In this document: one piece after another, positions 7,574 to 30,104 of the stretch
Position numbering within the stretch: position 1 is the stretch's first letter
Layout: the number at the start of each line of letters is the position of its first letter
IMG/VR virus record: IMGVR_UViG_3300005613_000001
Location: 463,113 to 527,112 of that record
From: a virus
DNA length: 64,000 bases
Strand: one strand, 5' to 3'
The notes under the pieces: model-generated
The model's database searches: none
What the model saw: only the letters and a program-made list of their open reading frames with translations
Told to the model about the DNA's origin: nothing
Made by a program: the position numbers and the translations under genes

Positions 7574-8082
7574 TAGATACCTTCTAATACATAGTCACCT
7601 ATTTTTTTCAAGGACATAAGGCAGGCATCAAATCTATGAAATTCACTTGACAAATATTGTAATCTCAATTCTTGAAACCCATTCATACCTGTATCTGTTA
7701 AATCGAAAAAGAATGATTGTCCTCTTCTTCCTACCACCTTATTTTTCTTTTTCATAAGTATATAGGCTGCGGCACCTAAATCTGATACTTCCCCTATTTC
7801 CCCGACATTTGGCTCATGTTCTCTCATTTTCTTGAGAGACATTAAGCATGAGTCAAATTTATGAAAATCGCTTGAGAGATACTCAAAATTTAGATTATCA
7901 AAGTCATCAAGCTCAGACTCATTCATAAGGAAATATACTGCTTGTCCTTTCTTTCCGCCGATTTCGTGCTTGTTCATTAGACAAAAAGCAGCGGCACCTA
8001 AATCGGTTACATACTTTACAACTCGTTTTTCTTCCACTTTCTTTACCTTTCTTATACTGCATTTTCTGCGGCGATCAAACAT
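7573..8082 (-). CDS. Tandem-duplicated DUF5659-like domain protein
   Basis: 169 residues made of two homologous ~65-residue halves: DLGAAAFCLM...GKKGQAVYF...YLSSDFHKFDSCLMSLKKM and DLGAAAYILM...GRRGQSFFF...YLSSEFHRFDACLMSLKKI. The pattern (S/T)DLxxAAYxLM ... FxF ... LxxLK resembles small DUF5659-type phage/bacterial domains of unknown function. The N-terminus is basic (RRRKCSIRKVKK). It overlaps the actin-like gene by 31 nt and is followed immediately by the Pro-rich gene, so it may act with the filament protein; that is inference from position. Confidence 0.72.
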   Translation of the reverse strand: MFDRRRKCSIRKVKKVEEKRVVKYVTDLGAAAFCLMNKHEIGGKKGQAVYFLMNESELDDFDNLNFEYLSSDFHKFDSCLMSLKKMREHEPNVGEIGEVSDLGAAAYILMKKKNKVVGRRGQSFFFDLTDTGMNGFQELRLQYLSSEFHRFDACLMSLKKIGDYVLEGI

Positions 8083-9059
8083 CCCCTGCTAACGCTATAA
8101 AGCGGATCAGTAGGACGGATTATCTTACCTATCTTAATTGGCAATTTCGCTTGTTTAATAACATCATTAAACAACGCATCAAACCCATTTGGCAAACTTG
8201 ATCCTCCGGCAATTACAATATCAATTGGATCGTCTGTTCTTGCTTTCTTACCTGCACCTGCCAAACCTTCTTTAATGCCTGTAGCTGTCTTTTCCATCAT
8301 AATTCTATATTGAGTTTGAATGGCTCTTTCTACAAGCGTGCTTGGTTCTTTCGTTAAATCAATATTTCTCTTTTCTTTGTTGATAAAAGTAGCCGTTTCA
8401 CTAACCGCCTTGGCAGCCCTTTTGTCAATCCAGTCACCACTATTAACTAATGAAAAACTAAATACTGGCGCACTGTAAATAGAGAAGCACAGATTTACCA
8501 TTCCCGCCCCAAATGAAATTCCAATGCCTGTATATGCCTTTTTCCCAAGCTCAGCATACACCAATGCTAAGCCCTCGTTAATGGGTTGAGCATTTACTGT
8601 GTGTCCGGTTTCATCTTTAAACGCCTTAAAAATAGCCTCTAAGACTTTACCGTGATAATCTGCATCGGTCTCTTCATTAATGGCATTTGCCGGGACGCTG
8701 TAATATAAGGTTTCTTTGTCCTTAGACACATTATCCAACAGGCTGTGGACCATAATTTTTAAAATCTGAAAGGCATGAATCTCACCCGGATTCACACACC
8801 CTTCTTTCATAGGTCTCTTTAGATTTAACGCACTCATCGTATAAGCCATATCTACGGCTTTCTGTCCCAATGCATAAGCAATATCATCTCGCTCAACAAG
8901 AGGAACGCCTGCATTTTTCATCATATTAAATACAAAACGGTTCTCTAATGGGAATTCAAGGAAGGCATTTACTTCCTTCTTATGAACAAAATTCTTATTT
9001 TCATCTCGCTGACAAGTCACTAAATTATACGTGCCCGCGTCAAAACCGATTCCTGACAT
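8052..9059 (-). CDS. Actin/Hsp70-fold ATPase (ParM/MreB-like)
   Basis: 335 residues. The three signature elements of the actin-Hsp70 superfamily are present: phosphate-1 loop GIGFDAGTYNLV (3-14), connect-1/phosphate-2 region INEGLALVYAE with GISFGAGMVNL (160-190), and the adenosine loop VIAGGSSLPNG (282-292). It is shorter than DnaK (no substrate domain) and in the size range of ParM/AlfA-type filament proteins. A likely role is a nucleotide-driven filament for DNA or virion positioning in the infected cell, as shown for some phage and plasmid actins; this is inference. The 74-residue gene just upstream may be its partner. Start ATG follows GGTAAAG. Confidence 0.82.
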   Translation of the reverse strand: MSGIGFDAGTYNLVTCQRDENKNFVHKKEVNAFLEFPLENRFVFNMMKNAGVPLVERDDIAYALGQKAVDMAYTMSALNLKRPMKEGCVNPGEIHAFQILKIMVHSLLDNVSKDKETLYYSVPANAINEETDADYHGKVLEAIFKAFKDETGHTVNAQPINEGLALVYAELGKKAYTGIGISFGAGMVNLCFSIYSAPVFSFSLVNSGDWIDKRAAKAVSETATFINKEKRNIDLTKEPSTLVERAIQTQYRIMMEKTATGIKEGLAGAGKKARTDDPIDIVIAGGSSLPNGFDALFNDVIKQAKLPIKIGKIIRPTDPLYSVSRGCLIAAENAV

Positions 9060-9507: not shown

Positions 9508-10503
9508 TTATCCTCCAATGATTTTCAATGGTTGCTTTAACATCTTATCTACTCCTAATAGAATCATGTCTGCTGTAAGTTCTGTCAAACAGGGTTTTGG
9601 ATATGCCTTACTTTTTGGGCAATCGGGCCAATTATAACAAGGTCCACAGTTCCAGTTGCCGTCGTCTCGATGCTTTTGTACAAGTGTCCAATTTTCATAC
9701 CACCTTCCATATACCTTTCCATCGACCATTGTGAAAATACCAACCTGGGGCTTTCCCAAACCCCCGGCCATATGAAAGGTCGCTGTATCGACTGAGACTA
9801 TATAATCCGCTGATGCAACAAAACTCATCCATTTTCTAATAGACCCCATAAGCAAAGGCACTTTTAGATGTTCAAGCATTGGGATTGGACCCGTATGTGT
9901 GTAAAACACATAGCATCCACGCTCCCGTAGTCCGTTTACGACCCCCTCCATTTGATGTGAAATTAAATTTTTAGTCGCCATTGCTGAAATTGGCGAAAAT
10001 AATACTGTTGGTCCACTCTGGGTGCGATGAGACTCAATTTCTCGCTTCGCCTCTATTAATTCTTGTTCACTGAATTGGAAGTGCATATTGTGGTTTTCTA
10101 GTGCAACCCCACAATGGTTAGCCCAAATATCACTTCTATTTTTGCCAGAGAGAGGGGCCATTCTGACTTCATACCGACAGCACGCATTGGTAGTATTATA
10201 AGATGTCAGATAGTCTCCCTGGTCTATTTTTCCAGAATCAACCAGTTCATCTACAAAGGGGTGTCCTTTGATTGCTTGGTGATATATCCCTGGGCAAGCA
10301 AAAACTATCTTAGCATCGGGCATAATCCTTTTAAAATCTTCAAAGATCATTCGGTGAACTAGAATATCCCCTAGTCCCCCATTAGCACGATAAATGAGTA
10401 TAGAATTTCGCTTGTCGCTAAATTCCCTTAAAGACAGATTGGTAGTTCTCTGGCTTTTTTTGACAAGTCTTGATAATAACTTCTTATGCTGAAGTGCTCT
10501 CAT
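9508..10503 (-). CDS. GT9-family (heptosyltransferase-like) glycosyltransferase
   Basis: 331 residues. GT-B fold of the ADP-heptose:LPS heptosyltransferase family: N-terminal RANGGLGDILVHRMIFED (about 36-53), central ILFSPISA-like strand, and the sugar-nucleotide site SADYIVSVDTATFHMAGGLGKPQVGIF (about 240-266). A cysteine-containing C-terminal segment (NCGPCYNWPDCPKSK) is also seen in bacterial members. It transfers a sugar from a nucleotide donor; acceptor unknown, perhaps a virion protein or host glycan. Its start overlaps the preceding membrane-protein gene by ATGA, so it belongs to the ExbB/ExbD-like operon. Confidence 0.8.
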   Translation of the reverse strand: MRALQHKKLLSRLVKKSQRTTNLSLREFSDKRNSILIYRANGGLGDILVHRMIFEDFKRIMPDAKIVFACPGIYHQAIKGHPFVDELVDSGKIDQGDYLTSYNTTNACCRYEVRMAPLSGKNRSDIWANHCGVALENHNMHFQFSEQELIEAKREIESHRTQSGPTVLFSPISAMATKNLISHQMEGVVNGLRERGCYVFYTHTGPIPMLEHLKVPLLMGSIRKWMSFVASADYIVSVDTATFHMAGGLGKPQVGIFTMVDGKVYGRWYENWTLVQKHRDDGNWNCGPCYNWPDCPKSKAYPKPCLTELTADMILLGVDKMLKQPLKIIGG

Positions 10504-11087: not shown

Positions 11088-11734
11088 GGGTCTACCTCCT
11101 CTTCATAATTATTTTCATCAAAACCTCCACCATTAACTGCTTTATCTGCAATGGTCTTGGGCAATTGATTCATACTTACCACGGAGCCCTTTTTGTCTAA
11201 TAAGAACCTGCAAACAGTTTTTTCATCACCATCTTCGTCTAGTGTAACCTTTTTTATAGCCACGGTTTTGAGTGTTGGATTAATTTTATCAATCTGGACG
11301 GTAACCTCAGTAGGTTTATTGGGAGTTCGCTTCGCATACATGTGTACGTTCATTACATACTCACCAGGGATAATACCTCGAATCGTTATAATTTCCCTAT
11401 TTTCGTTATATTTAATTGTCTCACCATCAGGAGTCTTAAAAGTATCATTGCTATGCCCTAAATCGTCACGATCTAAGTGCATTAGTCCATCTTCCCGCCT
11501 CCTAAAGAACACAAGATGGTCAGCGGGGTCTTGCAAATAAGAATCTACATCATTATTTAACTCATTATCCCAAGTGGTTGTAATAACAAACTCAGCTTTG
11601 GCTTCAGAGGCATTATCCAGTTTTGCTTCTGGATTAATTAAAATGTAAGCTATGAAGAATAACGCTACAAATCCCAATAGCGCATTGAATAGCAAATCTA
11701 AGAAGGCTGTATTAGCCCCATAATATTGTCTCAT
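11084..11734 (-). CDS. ExbD/MotB-like proton-channel subunit
   Basis: 216 residues. A single N-terminal transmembrane helix, NTAFLDLLFNALLGFVALFFIAY (about 8-30), carries the conserved Asp at its start that conducts protons in ExbD/TolR/MotB. The rest is an unusual soluble domain with beta strands (EFVITTTWDNELNNDVDSYL, GIIPGEYVMNVHMY) instead of an OmpA peptidoglycan-binding domain. Its ATG overlaps the stop of the ExbB-like gene (TAATG), the usual B-D gene pairing. The complex would use the proton gradient across the host inner membrane to drive movement of the periplasmic part; the target in a phage is unknown. Confidence 0.75.
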   Translation of the reverse strand: MRQYYGANTAFLDLLFNALLGFVALFFIAYILINPEAKLDNASEAKAEFVITTTWDNELNNDVDSYLQDPADHLVFFRRREDGLMHLDRDDLGHSNDTFKTPDGETIKYNENREIITIRGIIPGEYVMNVHMYAKRTPNKPTEVTVQIDKINPTLKTVAIKKVTLDEDGDEKTVCRFLLDKKGSVVSMNQLPKTIADKAVNGGGFDENNYEEEVDP

Positions 11735-12315
11735 TAGATGTCCTTTTTGACTAAATTTAGTCCTTGAGCTAGATTAAAATACTGGATTTTAAGGAGTTGA
11801 GAACAAATTAAACCGATAAGAGTAGTATAGAGGGCTGTAGACATACCTCCACTCATGCTGCTTAACAAATCCTGTACGGACGTGATATCACTTACATCTA
11901 AGGTGCTAAATCCAACGAGCATTAAAATAAAACCACTTACTGTTCCAATCATACCTATATTGACACACATTTCACTTGAAAACCAACCAATTTCTTCCAA
12001 CCTAGATAGCTTCTCAACTTCATCTTCCCACTTTTTTCGTCTTACTTGTTGTCTTTTTCTTTGCTTTGGAGGAAGTGAAGCTTGCGGCCCAGGTCGCGGC
12101 GGCACATCCATATTCAGCACATTACTTAATTTGAATGTTTTCAATCCACACCAAGCTGAGACATATACAAATATCCCAAAAATAACAAAACTAAGTTTGG
12201 TTAAATCTCTTTCCCAAACCTTTTGAAAAGCATCCATATAAAAGGCTGCTACCACTCCCACAAGCACTAAACCGATTACAAGCCACCATTTTAAAAATAA
12301 TTTGTGTTTAATCAT
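11734..12315 (-). CDS. MotA/TolQ/ExbB-family proton channel subunit
   Basis: 193 residues with four hydrophobic segments: about 9-27, 40-58, 115-138 and 155-178. The last two hold the family core, GMIGTVSGFILMLVGF and GGMSTALYTTLIGLICSQLL, including the TT pair that lines the proton path. Between helices 2 and 3 is a basic cytoplasmic loop (PPKQRKRQQVRRKKW). It pairs with the ExbD-like gene directly downstream. It lies just after the terminator of the upstream gene, with GAGAGG before the ATG, so it starts a new transcription unit. Confidence 0.82.
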   Translation of the reverse strand: MIKHKLFLKWWLVIGLVLVGVVAAFYMDAFQKVWERDLTKLSFVIFGIFVYVSAWCGLKTFKLSNVLNMDVPPRPGPQASLPPKQRKRQQVRRKKWEDEVEKLSRLEEIGWFSSEMCVNIGMIGTVSGFILMLVGFSTLDVSDITSVQDLLSSMSGGMSTALYTTLIGLICSQLLKIQYFNLAQGLNLVKKDI

Positions 12316-13900: not shown

Positions 13901-14192
13901 GAGATTATTTGGACGAGTGACCAATCTAAAAGACTTAAATCTCCCGCAAGCATGGGAATCTAGAGTAGAAGGAATCATTCACGAAAACAGAATGTTGTGG
14001 GAACCTTGGGTAGAAACTGCTGAGTCCTATCAAGCATTAAAGAAAGCGATGTTATCTAGGGGTTATACCGCTCTACCAAGCCACTCCATGCCTGTAATTA
14101 GAGGGATAAACGCCTCTGACGAGGTGCAACCTAATAATACAGATAACTTTCAACCATCCAAAACTATGATCCGCAAAGGGAAAAGAAATTAA
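13827..14192 (+). CDS. 121-residue hypothetical protein
   Basis: Basic protein with MKVFLYLAKRDKTGVKVLAHL at the start and a helical middle (WVETAESYQALKKAMLSRGYTAL) and disordered C-terminus. The alternation of strand and helix looks like a real fold, but no family is recognised. Start ATG lies inside the preceding gene; it ends 4 nt into the convergent gene at 14189. Confidence 0.55.
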   Translation: MKVFLYLAKRDKTGVKVLAHLRSNKRLFGRVTNLKDLNLPQAWESRVEGIIHENRMLWEPWVETAESYQALKKAMLSRGYTALPSHSMPVIRGINASDEVQPNNTDNFQPSKTMIRKGKRN

Positions 14193-14497
14193 TCCCTTTT
14201 CTTAACAAAACAACGATGAATAGAAAATCCACCTGTAGAAACTTCAATTAAAAAAGTAGTTCCATCCACATCAGCGATGCTTCCGCCATTCTTTTTAAAA
14301 TCTTCTGCTATTTCATGAAGATTACCGTCAAAAGAGATGACATTTGCCGCAATCCTTTTAGCACTGAGTTTGGATACTACCGCTAGTCCAACCAAACTAG
14401 AACTTTTTGGTTGGTTGAATCGAGCAACATTATCCTTTTGTTCTGCTACCCATTTTTTGAAGTCTTCTAGCGATAAATAATTCATTCCCATTCCCAT
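14189..14497 (-). CDS. 102-residue hypothetical protein
   Basis: Alpha/beta protein (YLSLEDFKKWVAEQKDNVARF, SAKRIAANVISFDGNLHEIAEDFKKNGG, TTFLIEVSTGGFSIHRCFV). Several ATGs open the frame (MGMGM); the fourth codon onward fits the folded part. It is one base from the preceding glycosyltransferase-like gene, so co-expressed. Not recognised. Confidence 0.6.
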   Translation of the reverse strand: MGMGMNYLSLEDFKKWVAEQKDNVARFNQPKSSSLVGLAVVSKLSAKRIAANVISFDGNLHEIAEDFKKNGGSIADVDGTTFLIEVSTGGFSIHRCFVKKRD

Positions 14498-14498
14498 T

Positions 14499-15353
14499 TT
14501 AAGCTCCTTCTATATTGAAAAACTCATATATATCCTCTTCTTGTATATACGCTGCATTCGCATATTTAGGGCCACAAGAATGGTCTTTAATTTCTACATC
14601 TATCATTTCTTGATTCCTCAACCAATATAAATTTCCATCAATAATATCATGTGCTGTATGATGTTGTGGATACATATAGAGTTCATTTTCTAATTTTTCA
14701 GCCCCCGGTCTATTATCTTCAAAAGAATCATCACAGCACATAAGAAGAAGTTTGGTTACGCCGAAATGAAAAGCTAAACCAATTGCGGCACAAATGGGAT
14801 TTCTATAATCATCTATTCTATATGCACATCCCGCCCCTGTTCCTTTATAATCCCTTTGAGGGACAGGGACATACCTATAAAGATGACCCCTATACTTTTC
14901 AATAAATTTATGATATGTTCGGGTAGATGTAATGCATTTGGGGAAATATGAATGTTTCGTTGGGAGATAAGATAAACATTCCTGATAGGGGTTATTTACA
15001 ACATAATAATTAATTGCCCCTTTGTGACTTAAATCCCATTTTCGTAAAGCTGAATTAACAGCTAACACAGCGATTTGCCCTTTAGGTAACTTGCCAATTA
15101 TTTTTTGCTTTTCTTCGAAATTATACCCATCGGAAATGATAATAACATTAGGGTGCTCAATTTTGAGATCATCTATTTGTAATGATTTGTGGGAATTATT
15201 GGCTGTCTCATTATTTAAGAACACACTAAAATCTTTTTTTTGAATTAGCGTGTTTATATCTTGACAATTAGAAGTTTTTGCAAAATTGCGAACCCATATC
15301 CCTGATGTGGTTTGCAAATATTCATTGCCATTTCTGTGATTTTTTATTCTCAT
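14499..15353 (-). CDS. DUF115-like / glycosyltransferase-related protein
   Basis: 284 residues. The segment NVIIISDGYNFEEKQKIIGKLPKGQIAVLAVNSALRKWDL (about 70-110) has the Rossmann-like layout of DUF115/6-hydroxymethylpterin-kinase-like glycosyl-transferring proteins (a SxGxSL-type loop followed by an N-x-A strand); later GAGCAYRIDDYRNPICAAIGLAFHFGVTKLLLMCCDD also fits. The assignment is tentative. It lies immediately after (3 nt) the repeat fibre gene in the same transcript, so modification of that fibre is a reasonable inference. Confidence 0.5.
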   Translation of the reverse strand: MRIKNHRNGNEYLQTTSGIWVRNFAKTSNCQDINTLIQKKDFSVFLNNETANNSHKSLQIDDLKIEHPNVIIISDGYNFEEKQKIIGKLPKGQIAVLAVNSALRKWDLSHKGAINYYVVNNPYQECLSYLPTKHSYFPKCITSTRTYHKFIEKYRGHLYRYVPVPQRDYKGTGAGCAYRIDDYRNPICAAIGLAFHFGVTKLLLMCCDDSFEDNRPGAEKLENELYMYPQHHTAHDIIDGNLYWLRNQEMIDVEIKDHSCGPKYANAAYIQEEDIYEFFNIEGA

Positions 15354-15355
15354 AA

Positions 15356-18300
15356 CTAAACTCTAGGGCAAGGAACAATTGCAACACATTGCAATTCTTC
15401 TTCGCTAGCCCCAGTGAGCTTCTGTATGTCTAAATCAATCTTGACATTGACATCTATTGGCTTGCCCTTGTAAACCATTTCTACTTCCATATCTTCTGGA
15501 GCTTTGAGGTAAATTTCCTCGGGTATATTATGAATTAGAGTAATAGTCTCAGGGATTCCTGTTACTTTAATGCTGTTTGGAATGCCAGAAGCATCTAGCT
15601 GAATCGATTTGGGAAAATCTTCAGGCACTAAAAGATCAATAGATTCAGGTATCGCAGGAGCAATTAATTCAATAGATTTAGGAACATCTGTAGCTGTTAA
15701 CTCAATGGAAGTTGGAATTTCAAAATCAGAAACAATTTTAATTTGTTCTGGGATTTTGGGGCCATCAAATGTAATTTTTTCTGGAATATTCCCTTCTAAC
15801 TTAATAGATTCTGGCAAATCATGCTTTAATTTAATAGCCCTTGGCATCTTGGGGGCAACAACTTGAATAGTAGAAGGAATGCCAAGATCACCAACTTCAA
15901 CAGTCAAAGGGTCATCTTCTTTGAACATATCTTCATCAAAGAATCGTGATGATTGCCTGTTCTTTTTATTCTGCGAAAATGCCTGTGAGGTTGCACTAAC
16001 AGAGCTAGGACACGAAACCGTCACAACACAACTAATAGTGGGTGGATCACTCCATGTAACCGTTAGGTCGGGTGCCTCCATTGTAATCTGAGTTGGTATT
16101 TCACAATCACATACAATTGCAATTTCTGATGGAATATCACAATCACATGTAACATTAATTTCGGAAGGTATATCACAATCACATACAATTGTAATTTCTG
16201 ACGGTAGATCGCCAGAGACATCAGCCCCTAAAACAACTTCAATTTGTGAGGGAAGGGATTGGCTCAAATCATCAGCCGCTCTAATTTCAATTGTCGAAGG
16301 TATTGAACCAGCGCTCTCTCCGGCTTCAATAAGAATAACCGATGTGAAATTCTCCGGCATTGCCCCAAATCCAACCTCAGATGGAATTGGTGTTTCCATT
16401 GGAGCAAATCCAACTTGGGATGGAATTGGTGTGTCCATCGAGCCGAAATCAACTCGGGATGGAATTGGTGTTTCCATTGGAGTAAATCCAACTTGTGATG
16501 GAATTGGTGTGTCCATCGAGCCGAAATTAACTTGGGATGGAATTGATTCCATTGAACCAAATTCCACTACTGAAGGCACAGCATTCCCCGTAAATTCCAC
16601 TACCGAAGGTACAGCATTCCCCGTAAATTCCACTACCGATGGCACCTCATTCCCTGTAAGTGTAATCTCAGATGGAACTGTCCCTGTAAGTGTAATCTCA
16701 GAAGGCAGAGAACTCTCCCCGAATTCAACTACCGATGGCAAAGGACTGTCCGCAAAATCAATTATTGATGGTACATCATTCCCTGTAAGTGTAATCTCAG
16801 AAGGAACACTCAAACCCGTAAGTGTAATCTCAGATGGTATATCATCATTCACCTGAATCATTGATGGCACACTATCTGTAACTGTAATCTCAGACGGCAC
16901 TTCCAAACCCGTAAGCGTAATCTCAGATGGTATGTCATCCATCACCTGAAGCACTGATGGAATATCATGATTTACTTCAATTATTGATGGAATATGATCC
17001 GTAGGTCCAAAATTAATTACCGATGGAATATCATGTTCTACTGTAATTATTGATGGAATATGATCTGTGGGTCCAAATTGAATTAATGATGGAATATCAT
17101 GTTCTACTGTAATTATTGACGGAATATGATCCGTAGGACCAAATTGAATTATTGATGGCAAGTCATGTACTACTTCAATTACCGATGGGAAAGGAAGAGG
17201 TACAGGTCCAAAATTAATTACCGATGGAATATCATGATCTACTACAATTACCGATGGAATATGATCTGTGGGTCCAAATTCAATTATTGATGGTAAATCA
17301 TGCACTACTGAAATAATTGATGGAATATCATTGGGAAAATATCCAAATTCAATTAACGACGGAATATTAACAGGACTAAATGTAATATTCGATGGAATAT
17401 CAACGGGACCAAATGTAATCACAGATGGAATATCAACAGGGCTAAATGTAATCACAGACGGAATTTCAACTTCTCCGAATAAAATAATAGACGGGAAATT
17501 AACCGCGTCTCCAACAACTGAAATTACCGAGGGTATATTGACGGGTCCAAATAAAATAATTGATGGAATGTCAAGAGGCCCAAAATTGATTATTGATGGG
17601 ATTTCAAGAGGCCCAAATTCAATTAATGTTGGGATGAAAATGTCACCAAATGGACTAAAACTTAGAAGAAAACTTGGGATATCAAAATCTAAACTTATAC
17701 AAGGAAATAAAATAGGCGGCACAATAACTTCAGGCGGCAAGAAGTCGCAGTCAGGAATATCACAATTGGGATAATCAGGAACTTCAGGAACCGGAATTTC
17801 CAATATTGGATTTACATACCCCGGAGCAGGCAAATTAGATTGGTGTCGTATAGTAGGTGTTTGCACAACTTGGCAACGAGGGTCTGTTACAATTACCACT
17901 GGGTCAATAGTAGAATTAGGCGCATATCTGTGAGTGCCCTGTGTCTCAGTAGTGGTAAATGTTCCATCACCAAAATCTAATTTATATTGAGTGTATAGCC
18001 CTTCAATGTCTATATTGTATTCTAAATCAACACCAACACACTCATTGCTTGTCTCAGCAACCTTTGTTTCAAAGCTGCCCACTGTCACACAGAAATCATC
18101 TAAACACAAAGGGGTTTCATCAAGACACCGAATACGGAAATCTAAAGTTTCTGTATCAACGTCATAGTTGTAACCTATAAACTCTTCAAGATCTATTACA
18201 GCATCAGCTAACTGGTTGTGGTGTTCGGCAACTACCATACCGCGAACTATTGTGCCTGTTCGGGGGCAAATAGCAGTGCCAGCTATAGTTGAATTATATT

Positions 18301-18595
18301 GTGTTTCTTCACCACCTAGATTTCTTAAAGCCTTTTTGAGAACATTAATTTTACCATTAGCATCATATCCAACATCTGCATAATAAAATAATTCTCCTCC
18401 TATAGTTGCAAAACCGTTGGTAGGCCAGATTTCCGTTTCATTTATCCCAACTGGCACAATATAGACTTCTTCCGACCACGGCTGATTATCAGTCGCCAAC
18501 ACACTCTCTACAGTGTTATTGACTAGATAAAGCGTGTGATTGCTGTTAATCCCCAGGGGATATACAGGAGTTGGGGGGAAGTTTTGTTGTGCCAT
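15356..18595 (-). CDS. Giant fibre protein with PKD domain and ~58 IPSxI repeats
   Basis: 1,079 residues. Residues 1-180 form an N-terminal module shared with the next two fibre genes (marker AEHHNQLADAVIDLEEFIG, about 125-143). A PKD-like domain follows (LDFGDGTFTTTETQGTHRYA, about 205-225). From about residue 300 to 1030 the chain is built from short repeats of the form (I/V/L)PSxI-x-(F/V/L), spaced 8-15 residues; I count about 58, drifting to IPxxI in the last dozen. A block of CDC motifs lies at about 790-820. This regular Pro-Ser/hydrophobic periodicity predicts an extended beta-spiral or solenoid shaft. No enzymatic domain. Role: tail-fibre or whisker, probably host-surface binding. A TATAAAAT box lies ~25 nt upstream of the ATG. 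Confidence 0.8.
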   Translation of the reverse strand: MAQQNFPPTPVYPLGINSNHTLYLVNNTVESVLATDNQPWSEEVYIVPVGINETEIWPTNGFATIGGELFYYADVGYDANGKINVLKKALRNLGGEETQYNSTIAGTAICPRTGTIVRGMVVAEHHNQLADAVIDLEEFIGYNYDVDTETLDFRIRCLDETPLCLDDFCVTVGSFETKVAETSNECVGVDLEYNIDIEGLYTQYKLDFGDGTFTTTETQGTHRYAPNSTIDPVVIVTDPRCQVVQTPTIRHQSNLPAPGYVNPILEIPVPEVPDYPNCDIPDCDFLPPEVIVPPILFPCISLDFDIPSFLLSFSPFGDIFIPTLIEFGPLEIPSIINFGPLDIPSIILFGPVNIPSVISVVGDAVNFPSIILFGEVEIPSVITFSPVDIPSVITFGPVDIPSNITFSPVNIPSLIEFGYFPNDIPSIISVVHDLPSIIEFGPTDHIPSVIVVDHDIPSVINFGPVPLPFPSVIEVVHDLPSIIQFGPTDHIPSIITVEHDIPSLIQFGPTDHIPSIITVEHDIPSVINFGPTDHIPSIIEVNHDIPSVLQVMDDIPSEITLTGLEVPSEITVTDSVPSMIQVNDDIPSEITLTGLSVPSEITLTGNDVPSIIDFADSPLPSVVEFGESSLPSEITLTGTVPSEITLTGNEVPSVVEFTGNAVPSVVEFTGNAVPSVVEFGSMESIPSQVNFGSMDTPIPSQVGFTPMETPIPSRVDFGSMDTPIPSQVGFAPMETPIPSEVGFGAMPENFTSVILIEAGESAGSIPSTIEIRAADDLSQSLPSQIEVVLGADVSGDLPSEITIVCDCDIPSEINVTCDCDIPSEIAIVCDCEIPTQITMEAPDLTVTWSDPPTISCVVTVSCPSSVSATSQAFSQNKKNRQSSRFFDEDMFKEDDPLTVEVGDLGIPSTIQVVAPKMPRAIKLKHDLPESIKLEGNIPEKITFDGPKIPEQIKIVSDFEIPTSIELTATDVPKSIELIAPAIPESIDLLVPEDFPKSIQLDASGIPNSIKVTGIPETITLIHNIPEEIYLKAPEDMEVEMVYKGKPIDVNVKIDLDIQKLTGASEEELQCVAIVPCPRV

Positions 18596-18627: not shown

Positions 18628-19323
18628 TTACCGGATGTTGCTATTTTTCCTACGCTGATTAACTTCTGTGAGACCTTGTGAATTACACCAACCGTTTGTT
18701 TGGCTATGACAATTAGGACATAAAAATTGCAAATTAACAGGTCTATCGTCTAAAACATTTCCATTCTTGTGATCTACTTGCAATCTCAATTCTTCTCCAC
18801 ACCATGAATCTCCAATTCCGCACTTCTCACAAATATATTTTCTTCCACTTTCAATCAAAGCTCGCCGCAGGACATAAGATAGATGTCTTCTACCCTCTTT
18901 TCTTTTTACAAGTATTTCATTAGCACTTTTCCTTTTATTTCCACCTTTATGTCTTTTGCCCGAGTTTGCCTTTCTTCCCAAAAAATGGCTTGTATCTATT
19001 TGATATTCTTTAATTCTTGTTTTTAAATAATTGTGAATTCCACCGTGCCACTTTACGCCCAAATGATTACAAAGTTCTGCATACGATACACTTTTGGCTA
19101 CTGCATCTTGCAATACTTCTTTAGTATATTTGCGTGGATGATTTCGCCCGACAAAGTGTGATGTGTTTATTCCAAACAATTTAGCTTTCTTTTGCACGTT
19201 GCAAATGTTTCCTCCATGTACAGGCAGTCCCAAACCCCTCACTACGCCACTCCAAGTTATATTTTCGGAAATCAAATATTGTAATTTTTCTTTGTCCATA
19301 TGTTTATATATTAAATCATCCAC
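18628..19323 (-). CDS. HNH homing-type endonuclease
   Basis: 231 residues. The C-terminus (about 165-210) is an HNH nuclease: CEKCG, LRLQVDHKNGNVLDDRPVNLQFLCPNCHSQT, with the DH...N...H catalytic set and two CxxC zinc pairs. The N-terminal ~130 residues carry two copies of a DNA-binding unit ending DTSHFxGR / NTSHFVGR preceded by HTH-like helices, a common arrangement in phage free-standing homing endonucleases. It lies between two fibre genes with little spacing, as expected for an intron-less mobile gene that cuts related phages. Confidence 0.88.
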   Translation of the reverse strand: MDDLIYKHMDKEKLQYLISENITWSGVVRGLGLPVHGGNICNVQKKAKLFGINTSHFVGRNHPRKYTKEVLQDAVAKSVSYAELCNHLGVKWHGGIHNYLKTRIKEYQIDTSHFLGRKANSGKRHKGGNKRKSANEILVKRKEGRRHLSYVLRRALIESGRKYICEKCGIGDSWCGEELRLQVDHKNGNVLDDRPVNLQFLCPNCHSQTNGWCNSQGLTEVNQRRKNSNIR

Positions 19324-19344: not shown

Positions 19345-21756
19345 CTAATATATTGCCATCATCCATTGATCGCCAGAAGGTCTTGCTCCTAGAGATGAAA
19401 ATGTAAGGTCCGCCTCATTAAATTTAATAAAGGCATTAGGACTATAATCAAAGCTCATATAAGCCCTTCTGTCATCATCCGACACAGCAAGAAGTGGCTG
19501 GTCTAAATTACTAAATCCTGCCACGGTTTTATCTTGAAGTGATCCAAAAGCAACAGAATTTGTTCCTGCACCACCTGTTTCCCATACGCCGCTTGTATCG
19601 TTGTAAGCGGAAATATTAGCTGAGTTATTTAAAAAGTACATGCCACTTGTTAAACCAACCAATTGACCTTCTAGTTTTGTAGTGCCAGCTATATCCACTA
19701 GTTTTTTAAGATCCCTAAGGGGATTTGATAAAATGCCTTCCGTTCGGTAGAAGCTTTTGATTCTAAAAAATGCTCCAACACCATCATTTCTTGCAAAATA
19801 TCCAACATTATTTTTTGTTGCAGCCCGATAAACACTGAAATGTCCTTCTTCTGGCACACCTGTTGTGGGGTCATAGTTTGCTATATTTTGCTGAAGTTCG
19901 TCCGCCCCATTTAAATAATTAGCAAATTGAAAGTCAACTGAAGTGCTAGACAAGTCTGTTACATCTACGGCGAGTTTTGCTGCATTTGTAGGAGATGTAT
20001 CAGGCGGTATTACAGCATCGGTTGTATTTCCTAGAATGAAGTAAGCATTAGAATAGATGTTCATACCTACCCAATTCCACGGTCTTGAAACTGTAGGAAC
20101 ACCGGGAGTGATATAAACGTCATCAAACCCATTAAACTCTCTAATTTTAATTTTCTCTGTGGCAGGAGACGCTGCGGAATCTCGTCCACCAGCCCAAAAC
20201 AGCAACGATGTGCCATGAGCAACAGCCCCAGATGTAGTTGTAGATCGTTGAGAGAAGAATGTATTTCTTTTAAATTCTCTTAACAACTGTTCTGCATTAT
20301 CATGGTCTTTAAGAAAATCTGTGTTTCTGCTGATAGTCAAAGGCGTTGATCGCGTTTTAAAGGTTTCGCTAATCAACCCAAATTCGCGTACTGAAGCTTG
20401 TCCGTTTGAATATATCCACAACCATACATTTTCTCGCTCTACTACATCAAATGCATCTTCATAAGTTGTAATTCTATAAGCACCATATTCTGTATCGACT
20501 CTTAAAATTAAATCATATAATCCACCAACACTATAAGAAGCCCTGGTAGAGCGGGCGTTTCCATGCGTTAAGTCATCACTAAGCTCCCAGTTGTAATCTA
20601 CAATTGGATCAATAGCGCTACCTTGAGCATCCAATAACTCCCCGGCATATGAAACACTTGGAGTATTGGGATTTTCCCCTTCCGCTATCACTAAATCTAT
20701 AAAAGTATCTACAGGTGTTTTGATAAAGGGTGTTGTTACAAAAGGCCCGCCCAATGGACTACCCTGTGTAACATCTTGTCCGCTTCTCTGGTCAATTTCA
20801 ATAATAGCTTCATCTGGGGCGGGGATTCTCGCTTGGATATAATCGTAAAATGTAACTGTGTCCGTCCCATATCTATTTCTCACCGTGAAACTAACATCAT
20901 ATTTGCCCGGAGAAGTATATGTTTTAGTAATATTGCCACCATCAATGTCTAGCACCTTTACTCCTACCTGCTCCACAGGAACTACACTAGCTACTGAAAT
21001 GGTTGAAGGGCAACCTGATATATCAAGATAATTACAATGTTCCACTAAAGCACAAGATATAGATGATATTGTTGAGATTGTTGAAATACAAGAAATATTA
21101 GAAATACACGATATCATTGAACAATCATAATCACCAAAATCCCATTCAAAAACCGTGGGAGATACAAGGCAGTATTTTTCATTTGTGCCATACCAATTGC
21201 CCCCCATATTAAAACTTTTCTCTGTAAATGTAACCTTGAAAGGAACTAAACCAACTTGCTTATCCACCGAAAACCAAGCTCTCGGTTGTAAGACCAATCG
21301 GTGTAGGAAGTTGATGCGCCCCTCCATTGTGTCGCCATAAGGAGCTAAATCAATAGTTCCCTTGATTCCAACAAAGGTTTCAATAGCAATAATGGCATCT
21401 TTTAAAGCATTGTGATATTCCGCCATTACGTTTTGAGTGACATTAGTGACCCTTTTCGGCTTGGCAACATCTGTATGTGTTGATAGTAAAGACAAACCAC
21501 TGAAAGTAAATGAATTATCACTCTCCTGTGATTTTGCACTATAATTGAAAGATATAGCACGATCATCTACATCACTACATTGCTCCGTAAGAGTGATATA
21601 TCCTGTAGAGGGGAAATTGTTATAAATATCAACATCGCCCTCAACACTAATACTTGTGTCCCCAGGAGTATAATCATCTGTTAATCGCAACCTTAAAGCA
21701 TCATGGGCAATTAATAAATTTTGTTCTGTATCAAGTGACTCTGGATAATTACTCAT
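19345..21756 (-). CDS. Large PKD-domain fibre protein
   Basis: 803 residues. N-terminal module homologous to the two neighbouring fibre genes (VMAEYHNALKDAIIAIETFVG, about 109-129). A PKD domain follows (VFEWDFGDYDC ... VSFTVRNRYGTDTVTF), interrupted by an odd Cys-Ile-Ser stretch (SCISNISCISTISTISSIS). A second PKD-like unit lies near 370-440 (DYNWELSDDLTHG ... DLILRVDTEYG). The C-terminal ~350 residues resemble a beta-propeller/kelch-like receptor-binding part (repeated strands such as GTSLLFWAGGRDS, LAVSDDDRRAYMSF). Role: virion fibre, likely adhesion. Confidence 0.78.
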   Translation of the reverse strand: MSNYPESLDTEQNLLIAHDALRLRLTDDYTPGDTSISVEGDVDIYNNFPSTGYITLTEQCSDVDDRAISFNYSAKSQESDNSFTFSGLSLLSTHTDVAKPKRVTNVTQNVMAEYHNALKDAIIAIETFVGIKGTIDLAPYGDTMEGRINFLHRLVLQPRAWFSVDKQVGLVPFKVTFTEKSFNMGGNWYGTNEKYCLVSPTVFEWDFGDYDCSMISCISNISCISTISTISSISCALVEHCNYLDISGCPSTISVASVVPVEQVGVKVLDIDGGNITKTYTSPGKYDVSFTVRNRYGTDTVTFYDYIQARIPAPDEAIIEIDQRSGQDVTQGSPLGGPFVTTPFIKTPVDTFIDLVIAEGENPNTPSVSYAGELLDAQGSAIDPIVDYNWELSDDLTHGNARSTRASYSVGGLYDLILRVDTEYGAYRITTYEDAFDVVERENVWLWIYSNGQASVREFGLISETFKTRSTPLTISRNTDFLKDHDNAEQLLREFKRNTFFSQRSTTTSGAVAHGTSLLFWAGGRDSAASPATEKIKIREFNGFDDVYITPGVPTVSRPWNWVGMNIYSNAYFILGNTTDAVIPPDTSPTNAAKLAVDVTDLSSTSVDFQFANYLNGADELQQNIANYDPTTGVPEEGHFSVYRAATKNNVGYFARNDGVGAFFRIKSFYRTEGILSNPLRDLKKLVDIAGTTKLEGQLVGLTSGMYFLNNSANISAYNDTSGVWETGGAGTNSVAFGSLQDKTVAGFSNLDQPLLAVSDDDRRAYMSFDYSPNAFIKFNEADLTFSSLGARPSGDQWMMAIY

Positions 21757-21763
21757 TTCACTC

Positions 21764-22795
21764 CTATAAAACTACCAATTGCTCGGTTAAAACGCCTCGT
21801 TTTTGTAATGTGCTCCCAAACACTAACAATAATGAAGGCTCATATGTACCAGGCTGTTGATATACGTGTTCGGTAGCATGTATGTTGGGATCAAGTTCCA
21901 CTTCTTTTTCAGTATCACCAAAAGCCCAATATCTCTGCATAATGTCCCCATCGGTTTGATCTACAAAACTAAATGTTGTTGGGGAAACGCCTAATTCCGC
22001 TGCCGTTTCTACAGAGTAAGCTTTGGAACCGCCATCTTTGGGAACAACATAAAAGAAAGGCTCTATCTGTTCTTCATCTACAATTATATATGCCGCCTTG
22101 GTCGTTATTCCAGTTCCGCCCAGGTCCGTTACTACGTCTAACCTTACGGTATAATGACCTTCTGCTAAATAAGTATGACTTGGACTGCGCTCTGAAGATG
22201 TTGTGCCATCCCCAAAATCCCACAAAAATCGCAATGAATGACCTAATGTGAAATTGTGAAATGAAACTTTTAGAGGCGGGGGTCCAACTACGGGGTGGGC
22301 TCTAAAAATAGCTCTAGGTGCTAACCATTTTTCTTCTAAAGCCTGAAGAATATAATTTAATGATCCTTCTGCTGGCTCATCTTCCACTCCTAAGTTTGTT
22401 TCAATGTTAACAAGTGCATCTCTTAATGCATTGTGATGCTCGGCCATTACCCCATGAATGACGGGACTTCCAATAGACCACCTATTTTGACGAGTTTTAG
22501 CAAAACCACGGTGTAAATCAGAAAAAACCCCATTAGTTCTAGAATCATACCAAATTAACTCATGACTCCCCGGAACGCCTGGTTCTGTTCCTATGCGTAA
22601 TAATCCCTTTTGAGGGAAAGCTGAGGCATCATTAACAATTATTCGTGATCCTGTAAAGCTTAGAGTTTGTTTTAGGGTTGTTTGCGCATTATTAGTAACA
22701 ATATGCAAATCGTCCCGGTCGTCTACAACCTCGGGATAAACAGACAAATCTCCTATCGTATATCCGTCGTCAAGGGATGAAATCTTCTCTACCAT
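21764..22795 (-). CDS. PKD-domain fibre/connector protein
   Basis: 343 residues. N-terminal shared module (VMAEHHNALRDALVNIETNLG, about 115-135). Then two PKD domains: FLWDFGDGTTSSERSPSHTY (about 194-213) with HYTVRLDVVTDLGG, and RYWAFGDTEKEVELDPN (about 288-304) with TYEPSLLLVFG. It is the shortest of the three paralogues and may be the virion-proximal connector. It is 7 nt upstream of the 803-residue fibre gene in the same transcript. Confidence 0.78.
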   Translation of the reverse strand: MVEKISSLDDGYTIGDLSVYPEVVDDRDDLHIVTNNAQTTLKQTLSFTGSRIIVNDASAFPQKGLLRIGTEPGVPGSHELIWYDSRTNGVFSDLHRGFAKTRQNRWSIGSPVIHGVMAEHHNALRDALVNIETNLGVEDEPAEGSLNYILQALEEKWLAPRAIFRAHPVVGPPPLKVSFHNFTLGHSLRFLWDFGDGTTSSERSPSHTYLAEGHYTVRLDVVTDLGGTGITTKAAYIIVDEEQIEPFFYVVPKDGGSKAYSVETAAELGVSPTTFSFVDQTDGDIMQRYWAFGDTEKEVELDPNIHATEHVYQQPGTYEPSLLLVFGSTLQKRGVLTEQLVVL

Positions 22796-22803
22796 TATAA
22801 CTC

Positions 22804-23499
22804 CTATTTATCATGCTTTTCCAGGCTTTTTTTAAGTTTCTGATCTTGCTTCACATGCATGAGTTGAACCTTTTCTATTATATTTACCAATTCTTTTTTA
22901 ATTGGCGCATCATCATTTAAAGATAAAATGGTTTTAGCTAATTCTACATCAATTGGATGATGCAATAGCAGCCTCAAATTCATATCTTGACGGAGGCGTT
23001 CATCCCAGTATTGCTTTTGAGATTCTAGGTCGTCAAAAGGCTTTAAAGGCTCTATTTTCTGCAATTCCTCTAAAGTCCGTAGGAACCATTCGGACTCTTC
23101 TGTGGTTTCTTTCATTCTCACTTTCAACTCAGAAATAGAACTATTAACTGCATCCATGTGCCTGTTAAATTTTCTTAATTTAATAGCAGATTCATCAAGA
23201 TGTAGCCTATTTTCATCATCTGAATAGGGCAAAGTCTCTTTTACCTTCTCCTCGGTCATTTTTTGCCTTCTTATCTCAATTTCCAACAACTCCTTCTGAT
23301 CTTGGCTTTCTGCGATCTCCCGACGTAGATTTTCAAGAGTATCCTTCCTGGTCCGTATTTCCCTAATGCATTGCCACATCTTACTTTGTAACGTAGGCTC
23401 TTTATTTACAATGAAATGTTGAAGCTGAAAGAAGCTCATCCGATTAACAATATCGTTTTCTAAGACCTTATTCATCTCGGTTACTATATCTCTTGACAT
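22804..23499 (-). CDS. Coiled-coil protein upstream of the fibre genes
   Basis: 231 residues, almost entirely charged heptad-type helix (about 40-170), e.g. RRQKMTEEKVKETL and SISELKVRMKETTEES. The C-terminal ~60 residues include LLLHHPIDVELAKTILSLNDD. No enzyme motif. Position directly before three fibre genes suggests a fibre assembly chaperone or coiled-coil structural rod; inference only. Confidence 0.6.
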   Translation of the reverse strand: MSRDIVTEMNKVLENDIVNRMSFFQLQHFIVNKEPTLQSKMWQCIREIRTRKDTLENLRREIAESQDQKELLEIEIRRQKMTEEKVKETLPYSDDENRLHLDESAIKLRKFNRHMDAVNSSISELKVRMKETTEESEWFLRTLEELQKIEPLKPFDDLESQKQYWDERLRQDMNLRLLLHHPIDVELAKTILSLNDDAPIKKELVNIIEKVQLMHVKQDQKLKKSLEKHDK

Positions 23500-26400: not shown

Positions 26401-26868
26401 TTAAACAAAATTCAATCGCCAATTCCAGGTAATTTGCATTTGGTTGGTTTTGGTAAGATCGGGGAAAGTAACCATACTGTATAGTTGGCCGTTTTGCATT
26501 CGGAGAGCCATTTCATTTAATATGGCTGAATTAGCTTCTGTAAAACTAATCACGGAGGTAAAAATCACTTGTGTTTCATCTCTGCTTGCAATTACAGATT
26601 TGGAGAGTTCCGTAACGCCAAACAAACCTGTACGGCTAGCTGCCACAAATTTTTGAACACCACCACTTGCACCATTTGTCCCAAAAATCATTTGGGAAAT
26701 ATAGAAGTCATAAGTATCATCTACTTCATTTGCTAGTGATTTCGCCAAGGCAATACGACCGTTGCGAAGAATGGTATTTTTGAAGGTTTTAACTTCCTTT
26801 CGCCCATCACGATAATCAATAATTCGTTCTATTGTGCCCTCGGGCTGTATCTGTTCATTAACGTTCAT
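26401..26868 (-). CDS. Baseplate/tail accessory structural protein
   Basis: 155 residues from the ATG at 26868, which overlaps the preceding stop (ATGA). Contains KTFKNTILRNGRIALAKSLANE (about 28-50) followed by a beta-rich body (ISQMIFGTNGASGG, TQVIFTSVISFTEANSAILNEMALRMQNG), the pattern of small phage virion proteins that begin KxxxNxxxxxGr. Coupled to the large gpI-like baseplate gene. Exact role unknown. Confidence 0.65.
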   Translation of the reverse strand: MNVNEQIQPEGTIERIIDYRDGRKEVKTFKNTILRNGRIALAKSLANEVDDTYDFYISQMIFGTNGASGGVQKFVAASRTGLFGVTELSKSVIASRDETQVIFTSVISFTEANSAILNEMALRMQNGQLYSMVTFPDLTKTNQMQITWNWRLNFV

Positions 26869-29800
26869 ATTTCTCCTTTTTCTTCTAAGCCGCTTGCCCA
26901 CTCAATATTGAATGAAATATCCTCGGATTGCTGAATAGTCTCAACAATTTCATCTTTGTTTGCGGCATTTAACATTGCAGCCTTAAATGCCATAGGGGCT
27001 GCTGTTTCCACAGTATTTACAATGATATCTTTACCCCTTCTATCTACGAAATCAAATGCATGTCCCGGTCCTGCCGGATCTCTTTGTGGTCGCACGGTCA
27101 AGTCCTCTTTCATTGCTTTATAAATAGTAAAATCTGTATTAGCCACCCCAGCGGTTCCCCAAACTTGAGCAGGACCGCCAAGAGTAATTTCTGTTCCATT
27201 TATGTCATTAATAACAAAATAATCTGCATCAACATAAAGTAGAAAGTCTTCTTTAAAATGCCCATCGCTAAATGGCGGAGTCCATTCGGTTGAAGGGGCA
27301 TCTGTTCCCGTGCCTTGTTCTAAGAACCCACCATCTTCCCAAGGGTATCCTGGCGCACTAGCTCCGTTCTGGATATTTAGATTAGTTTCATAATTTGTAC
27401 TTGTAGTAAGTGTAGCACCGGAATATGCCACATACCCCACTTCATTATCTACCAATCTACGATATACGCTAATTGCGCCCGCACCAGCGACTCCGTTGTA
27501 ATCCATATAAAGGGTCTTAGAGGCTCCCTCTTCAAATCCTATAACTTCATATTCAGAACCGCCCCAAACTACGTAATCCCCAATATTAATTAAAATTCTA
27601 ATATCAGACGTTGCGGCATCTGTGATTACAACCTTGCCCCTTGCTGTTACCGTTAATGCCCCAGTTGTGCTTGTCGTAATAGGAACAGAACCATCATCTA
27701 GAAGGGTATAGGTTATTCCTGTGCCCGCTACACCACCATCATCTATCAATAGTGTGCCATCTGGAAGGGTGGTAAGAATGGTATAAGTGGAAGCACCTAT
27801 TTTAATCTCCCATGCTCCTCCGCTGTAGTCTGCATCATTATCTACATCCCACTGTGTCTTTACTCCCAATAATCCAAAATTAACAGAGGCGTCAGAGAAG
27901 TTATTGACATCATCGCGTGAAATGGTATTCACGGCGTTGGTATAAACAATATTGGATAGCCTGAATGTAAATTCGCCTGTGCGAAAAGGACTTTCAGAGA
28001 TCGTATCAGGACTAGCTGGGTCAATCCATATTGTATTTTTAGTTGGTTCTCCTGAGACTGTGTAAGTTCCCGCCCTACCAATAGCCGGAGCTAAAATTTC
28101 AAGCACATTATCATTAGTTCCTGCCACATAGGCAGCAGGATCATTAATGTATGTGGAATTATTAAAATTAAGCTCTTGGAAATCTACATTAGGCGCATAA
28201 AGAACAATGTGATCGTTACTTACAGTACCCTTCACACCTGTCACCACGGCCCGCAAATCAGCGGTCTCAGTTCTTTTGACCATTTCAGGTGGCATCTCCC
28301 ACATATTGTGTTCCATTGATCTACTAAAGATGGTTTGAGCCGTACCACAATAAACATTTTCATCTACAGCTACCGTAACCAAAGCTTCAACTTCCTCCAC
28401 ACCGCAGTTTACAAACTCTTCAACTCCCCCGGAGAAATTCATAGTATGAAGAACGGCATGAAATGGCTTAAATTCATCTATAATTGATAATGCTTCAATA
28501 ATCCTATCATCTGACAAACTCTCAATTTCAATATCTACTGTAAATTTGCTACCCAAACATTTCGTACAGCAGTCTAAGAAGTCTTTGTCAATATCACAAG
28601 GGTCAGTTGAATCCCTTAAACTACCATTATACTCCTCCATATTGTAAATATTTTCTGAGAACGGGAACTCAGTTCTTATCTGACCAAAAACAACTGCCGG
28701 AGTGTAAGGTTGCCTGTCGGGTATGATAACGTCAAATAGAGGATCATCCTCCTCAATAACACGTACATTCCAGTTTTTCAACGGATATGTTTGATCCCTG
28801 AAATCTCTTTGATCGTCTAACGGTAATGTTCTAATATAATCCTCAATAGATTGTTGAGTGGCATTAGGAACGTTGTTTACTTCATACGTTATCTTTAAAA
28901 GGTCATCTTCTGCTAAAACAATGGGGCTCATAGAAAGTTGATGACCTACCCATGTCATCGTGGTTACGCCATCCACTGTTACAAATGTAACGTAGTCTGA
29001 TGTTAAATCAACAAAATCATCACTTCCCGCTGGGCGAATGGAAAGTTCAAAATTATTAGTATCAATAGGCAAAATTGGGTTTTTGTCTAATGTGAATTCT
29101 GTTTGTCCATTGCTTGATACCAATAACCCTTCTACCCAAGTATAAGGAGAAACAACCTGCCAAAGTCTTGTTAATTTAGTCAAAACAATGTCTGCTTGTG
29201 CAAGTGCCTCTTCCAATGCTAAATATGTTCCTTTTCGCTTAAATAATGGAATGGACCTCTTGATCTGCCTCCTCCACAATGTAGGATCACCACTTCTAAG
29301 CTGAAGATTGAACATGTTTGCCAGCAAGTTTAAAAATGATTCATTGGTTACATTGGCATCCATTAAATCAATTAGTTGATTGGCTAAATCTTCTACAAAA
29401 GTGAATCCTTTTGCTATCGCCCCATTAAAATTGTCTATAACTTCAGGTGTCAAATCATGGTCACCCAAGTAACTCTTAAACATTTGAGGCGTATATCTAT
29501 CCAACAGAGTGTCATACTTGAGAGGATCAGTAAAATGCGTGGGAACAGCGGTAGTAATTTGTGTTGCGCCAAAAAGATCAAATTGTCGGTAATTTGTTGA
29601 AGTATCCCCGGCTACATTCACAGTCCAAGTCCAACAAACAAAATATTGTCCCTCTCGCCTTCCATCGGGCTCCCAAGTCAGTTGGAAAGTACCTGTGCTT
29701 GTTCTTTCTAAAATGGCATTATCTGTGTCGGTAGACAGCCAGGCGGGAAACAACTCGGTGCCAAAGTTATCAGAAGGGGTTGCTTCATTATAATAAAAAG

Positions 29801-30104
29801 TAGAGGCAACCACACTTTGTTCTGCATCTTGTCTTAACTTGGTTGCATTTTCAATATTATCAGCAGTTGGAGTCGTGCAAGCCAATTCTTCAGCAGCAAT
29901 CGCAGCAGTTAGCTTGTCTTGATTGTAATTTTTAGATTCATGCTCTCTAAGGTTGCCACTAATAAAATCCCTTTCAATGAAGTAGATTGTCACATTGTCA
30001 ACTTTATATGGATCAACCAAACACCCATCGGTATCTGTTGTTTCTAAATCAATAAGCACTGTGTCCGCCATTGTAGGCGATTCATCAAGTGTTTTTATTG
30101 CCAT
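26865..30104 (-). CDS. Large baseplate protein with tail-protein-I domain
   Basis: 1,079 residues. The central region (about 200-335) matches phage tail protein I: ...LLDRYTPQMF, EDLANQLIDLMDAN, LANMFNLQL, RRQIKRSIPLFKRKGTYLALEEAL. N-terminal part is beta-rich with Thr/Asp; the C-terminal ~450 residues hold repeated beta strands (e.g. LLIDDGG, GYVAYSGATLT), an enlargement beyond P2 gpI (~180 residues). In myoviruses this protein binds gpJ in the baseplate wedge. Followed in this operon order (gp25, gpJ, gpI) it confirms a contractile tail. Confidence 0.78.
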   Translation of the reverse strand: MAIKTLDESPTMADTVLIDLETTDTDGCLVDPYKVDNVTIYFIERDFISGNLREHESKNYNQDKLTAAIAAEELACTTPTADNIENATKLRQDAEQSVVASTFYYNEATPSDNFGTELFPAWLSTDTDNAILERTSTGTFQLTWEPDGRREGQYFVCWTWTVNVAGDTSTNYRQFDLFGATQITTAVPTHFTDPLKYDTLLDRYTPQMFKSYLGDHDLTPEVIDNFNGAIAKGFTFVEDLANQLIDLMDANVTNESFLNLLANMFNLQLRSGDPTLWRRQIKRSIPLFKRKGTYLALEEALAQADIVLTKLTRLWQVVSPYTWVEGLLVSSNGQTEFTLDKNPILPIDTNNFELSIRPAGSDDFVDLTSDYVTFVTVDGVTTMTWVGHQLSMSPIVLAEDDLLKITYEVNNVPNATQQSIEDYIRTLPLDDQRDFRDQTYPLKNWNVRVIEEDDPLFDVIIPDRQPYTPAVVFGQIRTEFPFSENIYNMEEYNGSLRDSTDPCDIDKDFLDCCTKCLGSKFTVDIEIESLSDDRIIEALSIIDEFKPFHAVLHTMNFSGGVEEFVNCGVEEVEALVTVAVDENVYCGTAQTIFSRSMEHNMWEMPPEMVKRTETADLRAVVTGVKGTVSNDHIVLYAPNVDFQELNFNNSTYINDPAAYVAGTNDNVLEILAPAIGRAGTYTVSGEPTKNTIWIDPASPDTISESPFRTGEFTFRLSNIVYTNAVNTISRDDVNNFSDASVNFGLLGVKTQWDVDNDADYSGGAWEIKIGASTYTILTTLPDGTLLIDDGGVAGTGITYTLLDDGSVPITTSTTGALTVTARGKVVITDAATSDIRILINIGDYVVWGGSEYEVIGFEEGASKTLYMDYNGVAGAGAISVYRRLVDNEVGYVAYSGATLTTSTNYETNLNIQNGASAPGYPWEDGGFLEQGTGTDAPSTEWTPPFSDGHFKEDFLLYVDADYFVINDINGTEITLGGPAQVWGTAGVANTDFTIYKAMKEDLTVRPQRDPAGPGHAFDFVDRRGKDIIVNTVETAAPMAFKAAMLNAANKDEIVETIQQSEDISFNIEWASGLEEKGEI

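Follow-up and report, generated by a model that had tools for sequence, protein, structure and literature searches.

The window analysed here, the final 64 kb of a 527,112-bp record of an uncultured virus (phage), contains a gene (15356..18595, minus strand; a single ORF with an ATG start) whose 1079-aa product carries a long array of short repeat units between two conserved ends. The repeat protein is real and uncharacterised, literature searches having found no published description of it; the kind of object it would represent, a repeat-built viral fibre, is already known. With modest confidence, we favour the view that it is a tail fibre (or whisker) attached to the baseplate of a huge phage of myovirus type, its shaft β-structured, probably trimeric, and tunable in length. 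In most phage fibres the base is constant and the tip varies. In the family described here both are constant, and it is the middle that changes, by whole repeat units.

Layout of the gene and its repeat units

Read from its N-terminus (coordinates in this section are on the minus strand), the protein begins with a domain of residues ~1-160 that carries the motif AEHHNQLADAVIDLE (18116..18595; profile A2). There follow a PKD-like β-sandwich (residues 168-252, 17840..18094), a Pro-rich neck that forms the conserved left boundary of the array (residues 253-300, 17696..17839; alignments A6 and A8), repeat zone 1 (residues 306-843, 16067..17680), a non-repeat linker with the conserved right boundary PPT(V/I)SC.V.V.CPS (residues 844-905, 15881..16066; alignment A4), repeat zone 2 (residues 906-1034, 15494..15880), and a conserved C-terminal tip, VEMVYKGKPI ... 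CVAIVPC (15359..15493; alignment A4). An earlier note on this DNA had described over 700 residues that follow one repeat rhythm. The array itself stands, but it consists of two zones of differing consensus split by the linker, and that description was incomplete in missing the shared N-terminal domain, the PKD domain, the conserved C-terminus, and the family pattern of constant ends around a replaced middle.

The N-terminal domain also opens both neighbouring PKD proteins, PKD343 and PKD803, as seen with profile A2 in several phages, and is the probable anchor of the repeat protein. Since they have this domain in common, the three proteins probably attach to a common structure; together with gene order, this sharing suggests that the domain would anchor the repeat protein beside its two sister proteins, with the PKD sandwich serving as a spacer. 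To judge from its model, the sandwich is securely the sole part of the repeat protein with a known fold. Its sequence match is weak (PF18911, PKD_4, E 0.0014, below the cut-off; a Pfam match is present in 10 of 28 homologues), and its modelled structure clearly matches 4l9d (Foldseek TMt 0.71; VIA Z 9.1, rmsd 2.5).

The earlier estimate of about 58 IPSxI-type repeats was close: with three non-repeat matches left out, we count 57 units, 45 in zone 1 ([IVLF]P[ST]x[IVL]x[FVLI], mostly 10-13 residues; motif count and TRF arrays) and 12 in zone 2 (IPxxIx[LV]; motif count and alignment), and the IPxxI units of zone 2 are found in nearly all C-terminal homologues. Shuffling the sequence 1000 times gave the loose motif [ILVMF]Pxx[IVLM] a mean of 11.4 and a maximum of 20 matches, where the protein has 60; for the strict motif [IVLF]PSx[IVL]x[FVLI] the shuffled mean was 0.31 and the maximum 3, where the protein has 43. 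These counts bear out the description of a long, regular, β-prone array. Spacing between units is 9-16 residues and mostly 10-13; the proposed rhythm of 8-15 did not separate one step of 28 residues and one of 73, the latter mostly non-repeat linker. In the periodicity of the window's array, lag 11 is highest (0.247) and lag 8 is at background (0.054).

Position 0 of the unit is I, V, L, or F throughout (M once, in zone 2), position 1 is P throughout, position 4 is I, V, or L throughout, and position 6 is nearly always F, V, L, or I; positions 3 and 5 are variable. Judged from its residues, the unit alternates in the manner of a short β-strand capped by Pro at its start. The unit proline is invariant (57/57) yet uses four codons, and the zone-1 serine, present in 43 of 45 units, uses five (Ser or Thr occurs in all 45). 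Such mixed codons indicate that the motif is kept by selection and not by recent copying alone. At the DNA level the gene contains nested tandem arrays of 33, 36, 39, 66, 78, 93, 135, and 201 bp (TRF), and these support the suggestion that the array grew by successive local expansions. The longest exact DNA repeat in the window's array is 33 bp, so the array is not an obvious assembly artefact. Three CDC clusters, which the earlier note suggested may form disulfides or bind metal, are present in three tandem 12-residue units (residues 805-831, 16103..16183); Cys-rich units occur in relatives too (PPSFDCISFC in L002, L061, and L100).

Constant ends and a variable middle

Profile searches of IMG/VR recovered 56 N-terminal and 36 C-terminal loci, and about 90 contigs carry the family; one further family contig was found in a genome collection. 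Among the 50,697 records of INPHARED the family occurs in one, LR756511, a 595-kb uncultured phage in which the gene is unannotated; no other INPHARED record has the repeat protein, its array, DS284 (the gene directly downstream), or PKD803. The LR756511 homologue shares the gene cassette and the succession of N-domain, PKD-like region, array, linker, IPxxI zone, and tip, and differs in its length of 674 aa and its array unit, PPSFDCISFC[QH]. The family offers a marker by which a broad group of huge uncultured phages, almost absent from curated collections, can be recognised. Of the 56 N-terminal loci, 26 run open within the repeat gene, one of them (L051) because the stretch analysed stopped there, so that in 25 the contig itself ends inside the gene; contigs break there so often that repeat counts from short-read assemblies need care. 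A metagenome-assembled genome labelled as a Neisseriaceae bacterium (L101 and L111) has one contig that carries the phage cassette and stops within the array, and a second with a 284-aa frame matching PF01973, and these contigs probably belong to a huge phage binned with the bacterium.

Homologues share 35-54% identity with the window protein over the N-terminal 240 aa and mostly 32-56% over the C-terminal 180 aa (23% in L041). For the 33 proteins with both boundaries located, array length runs from ~12 to ~1050 aa (555 in the window). Nearly all of the significantly periodic stretches have units of 10, 11, 12, or 13 residues, and a few have units of 8-9; the consensus changes by phage (IPSxIxFGPxx, GPAPTIPTSITF, SPASFTFGPAPKI, PPSFDCISFC, IPTSIHINTPN, DDIPTTISVY). 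Close relatives differ by single units: L080 and L081 are identical save for one 11-aa unit, and the arrays of L072 and L073 differ by one 13-aa unit. The arrays also differ in L021 versus L022 and in L033 versus L059, but polymorphism or misassembly may be the cause, and we draw no proof from these pairs. The sequences show that units come and go singly or in small numbers, through tandem duplication or slippage.

Larger changes are also seen. Within one homologue (L027:5992-7890) the array goes from 10-residue IPSIISV units to 8-residue (I/V)xDIxL(I/L)G-like units, and in L049, L050, L051, and L055 the centre is swapped for Pro/Thr-rich, Cys-rich, or other unrelated modules (the C-termini of L049, L050, and L055 differ as well). 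These replaced centres mark the middle of the protein as a modular slot. Absence of the repeat from homologues had been named in the earlier note as evidence that would tell against a repeat-built fibre. Such absence is partial: L099 is almost without a central array, and the four proteins just listed carry another module, yet wherever the C-terminal half exists the IPxxI units are kept.

The ratio dN/dS was taken from two pairs, L072/L073 and L079/L083, since dS is saturated or high in more distant ones. It is 0.07 and 0.12 in the array, 0.06 and 0.09 in the N-terminal part, and 0.03-0.04 in the C-terminal part. The low array values show that the array is functional and constrained by purifying selection. 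Selection of this kind preserves the strand pattern, and the length and surface of the putative shaft change quickly between fixed ends. By these sequence comparisons the C-terminus is the most constrained part, which would be unusual for a fibre tip. The conserved C-terminus thus counts against the fibre reading, most phage fibres having tips that vary.

Fold of the array

If the protein is a fibre, the array would be its shaft. Each 10-13-residue unit would give one short strand plus a turn of variable length, with the hydrophobic residues 0, 4, and 6 facing inward and the start of the strand capped by Pro. Stacking of the units would probably give a β-helix or β-spiral made of several chains, most likely three, and zone 2 together with the C-terminal tip probably registers or trimerises the chains, or joins a second part of the virion. 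AlphaFold2, run on the full-length single chain with 27 sequences, placed one short (4-residue) strand in most units, with pLDDT up to ~83 around residues 590-680 and overall values of pLDDT 56 and pTM 0.33. The C-terminal zone alone (37 sequences, single chain) gave pLDDT 57.6, pTM 0.16, and zero strands. The strandless C-terminal zone and the low pTM of the full model are points against a fibre, as is the failure of any known fibre family to match by sequence.

The statement in the earlier note that the array could not be matched to a known fibre fold agrees with our searches, which returned none by Pfam, PHROGs, PDB sequence, Foldseek, or VIA-align. At the sequence level, neither the window protein nor 28 homologues matched a Pfam repeat (leucine-rich or FNIP), and the 28 homologues had no Pfam match to the adenovirus-type shaft family at E up to 0.01. 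Several candidates were set aside: a circular-LRR match to CroV588 (rmsd 26.6 Å, uninformative), the best Foldseek BFVD match, the SP-15 pectate lyase (rmsd 32 Å, meaningless), and a PDB sequence match to 9oh5 (E 0.025, taken as chance). PHROG matches to baseplate-wedge and virion proteins (L072, L074) fall on a small insertion in the N-domain, residues ~80-167, rather than on the array, and so cannot name the family.

Two known shafts invite comparison. The adenovirus triple β-spiral has a repeat of about 15 residues with two strands and Pro/Gly turns, and its length is set by repeat number. The array resembles it in its tandem short repeats, Pro/Gly turns, and alternating hydrophobics, and differs in having units of ~11 residues, one predicted strand, and no Pfam match. 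The triple-stranded β-helix of T4 gp5, also part of a phage tail protein, likewise repeats a short unit of strand plus turn (PMC4576200). It differs in its octapeptide, VxGxxxxx, from the window's units of ~11 residues with a Pro-capped IPSxIxF strand (the window protein has 3 VxG and none in tandem), although the 8-residue units of the L027 homologue are close to the octapeptide in length. One chain of an interdigitated trimer such as gp5 would not be expected to fold by itself (PMC4576200). An arrangement of this type would explain the poor monomer models obtained here, and their low confidence neither supports nor refutes a trimer.

The strand predicted in most units of the monomer would also be accounted for if the array were a monomeric β-solenoid stalk on a tail or baseplate protein, in which each unit supplies one strand and two or three units make up a coil, and not an intertwined trimer. 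Part of the model does match the RsaA S-layer β-solenoid region (VIA Z 9.1, rmsd 4.7 over 245 residues), but that model is of low confidence, as its mean pLDDT and its pTM attest, and Z values of about 8-9 are close to the range that VIA calls a common arrangement. Moreover, the units of a single array vary in length between 9 and 16 residues, a spread that would be hard to accommodate in a strict coil. We regard such a stalk as unlikely.

Borg elements carry amino-acid tandem repeats that are described as perfect and commonly disordered (PMC9879509), and they resemble the present case in belonging to a huge extrachromosomal genome and in the fast turnover of in-frame tandem repeats under selection. 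That resemblance, the low AlphaFold2 confidence, and a content of 13% Pro and 19% Ser plus Thr would fit an intrinsically disordered or elastic tether, but we give this explanation the least credence, since the units here are diverged, 38% of the array is large hydrophobics (I/L/V/F/M/Y/W) in strict strand-like alternation, a strand is predicted per unit, and the array lies on the folded side of the charge-hydropathy line (0.55 versus 0.46; composition only).

Should the shaft prove to be an ordered oligomeric β-repeat, the homologues, with their range of array lengths and several unit lengths and sequences, would be a natural series showing how short repeats code for a fibre and how its length is set. 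The fold of the array and its link to DS284 are the parts most worth testing.

The tail cassette and DS284

Synteny across 67 loci entries shows a conserved gene order, given here with window coordinates (all minus strand): a 231-aa gene that starts the linked cassette (22804..23499), PKD343 (21764..22795), PKD803 (19345..21756), the repeat protein, DS284 (14499..15353), and the small gene DS102 (14189..14497). Pfam, profile, and synteny together identify the two PKD proteins. In the window an HNH endonuclease gene (18628-19323, minus strand; phrog_10822, E 1.4e-57) lies between PKD803 and the repeat protein; similar sequence at this site occurs only in L012 and L077/L078, the sparse distribution expected of a homing element. 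Beyond the cassette lie a gpI-like baseplate protein (Tail_P2_I, PF09684, E 3.5e-7; 26865..30104, minus strand), a Phage_base_V protein (32118-34268; profile match), and a 2654-aa protein judged by eye to be tape-measure-like (36873-44837). The conserved cassette, close to Tail_P2_I and Phage_base_V, places the gene in a tail or baseplate module, in support of the fibre reading.

DS284 directly follows the repeat gene in nearly all loci whose DNA extends that far, and this adjacency bears on what the array may carry. Maf proteins, which contain pfam01973, O-glycosylate flagellin on Ser and Thr (PMC11339370), and PF01973 matches are found in 22 of 38 DS284 homologues at E up to 0.1 (best E 2.5e-6). 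A Maf/MptE-like DS284 might add sugars to the regularly spaced Ser/Thr residues, present in every zone-1 unit, and so make the array a surface-glycosylated sleeve that shields the virion or binds the host surface; a GT9-type (heptosyltransferase-like) glycosyltransferase gene near the cassette (9508-10503, minus strand; PF01075, E 4.5e-7) is also consistent with this. Against it, ten DS284 homologues inspected singly scored 14-23 bits with PF01973, below the curated cut-off of 34.6, or had no match, and the window's own DS284 has none. DS284 is collinear with 30 bacterial PF01973 proteins over the domain, but weakly (hhalign E 0.032, probability 1.6%), the nucleotide-loop region is altered, with the GGPSL-like loop of Maf reading SDGYxF, and no CMP-sugar synthetase (PF02348) was found in the record. 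From sequence, then, the array may be glycosylated, which we treat as a lead and not a result; the sleeve as a whole seems to us improbable, and it is compatible with the fibre reading.

The strict adjacency and co-conservation would equally suit fibre assembly chaperones, whose usual place is directly downstream of the fibre gene. We doubt that DS284 and DS102 have this role, for DS284 matches no known tail-fibre chaperone family and has its weak match to an enzyme fold.

Taken with the fibre reading, the Maf-like resemblance raises the speculative prospect, to which we attach little probability, of an undescribed class of huge-phage fibre. Its ends would be conserved and its freely adjustable middle built of a new Pro-capped oligomeric β-repeat (unit 8-16 residues) modified by a dedicated adjacent Maf-like enzyme; its length, pattern, and glycan surface would then vary between a constant anchor and a constant tip.

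Other genes of the region were recorded in passing. By eye, LR756511 has a similar GT9-type gene after its cassette (L002:12287-13291). The window encodes a MotA/TolQ/ExbB proton-channel-like protein (11734-12315, minus strand; PF01618, E 1.6e-8) and a 335-aa actin-family protein (8052-9059, minus strand; Volactin, PF25216, E 1.7e-66). A literature search on volactin with phage found nothing relevant; a Volactin-like protein is also visible by eye in LR756511 (L002:13534-14553). At 6735-6838, within the ORF at 6470-7573, the window has a perfect 21-bp tandem repeat in 5 copies.
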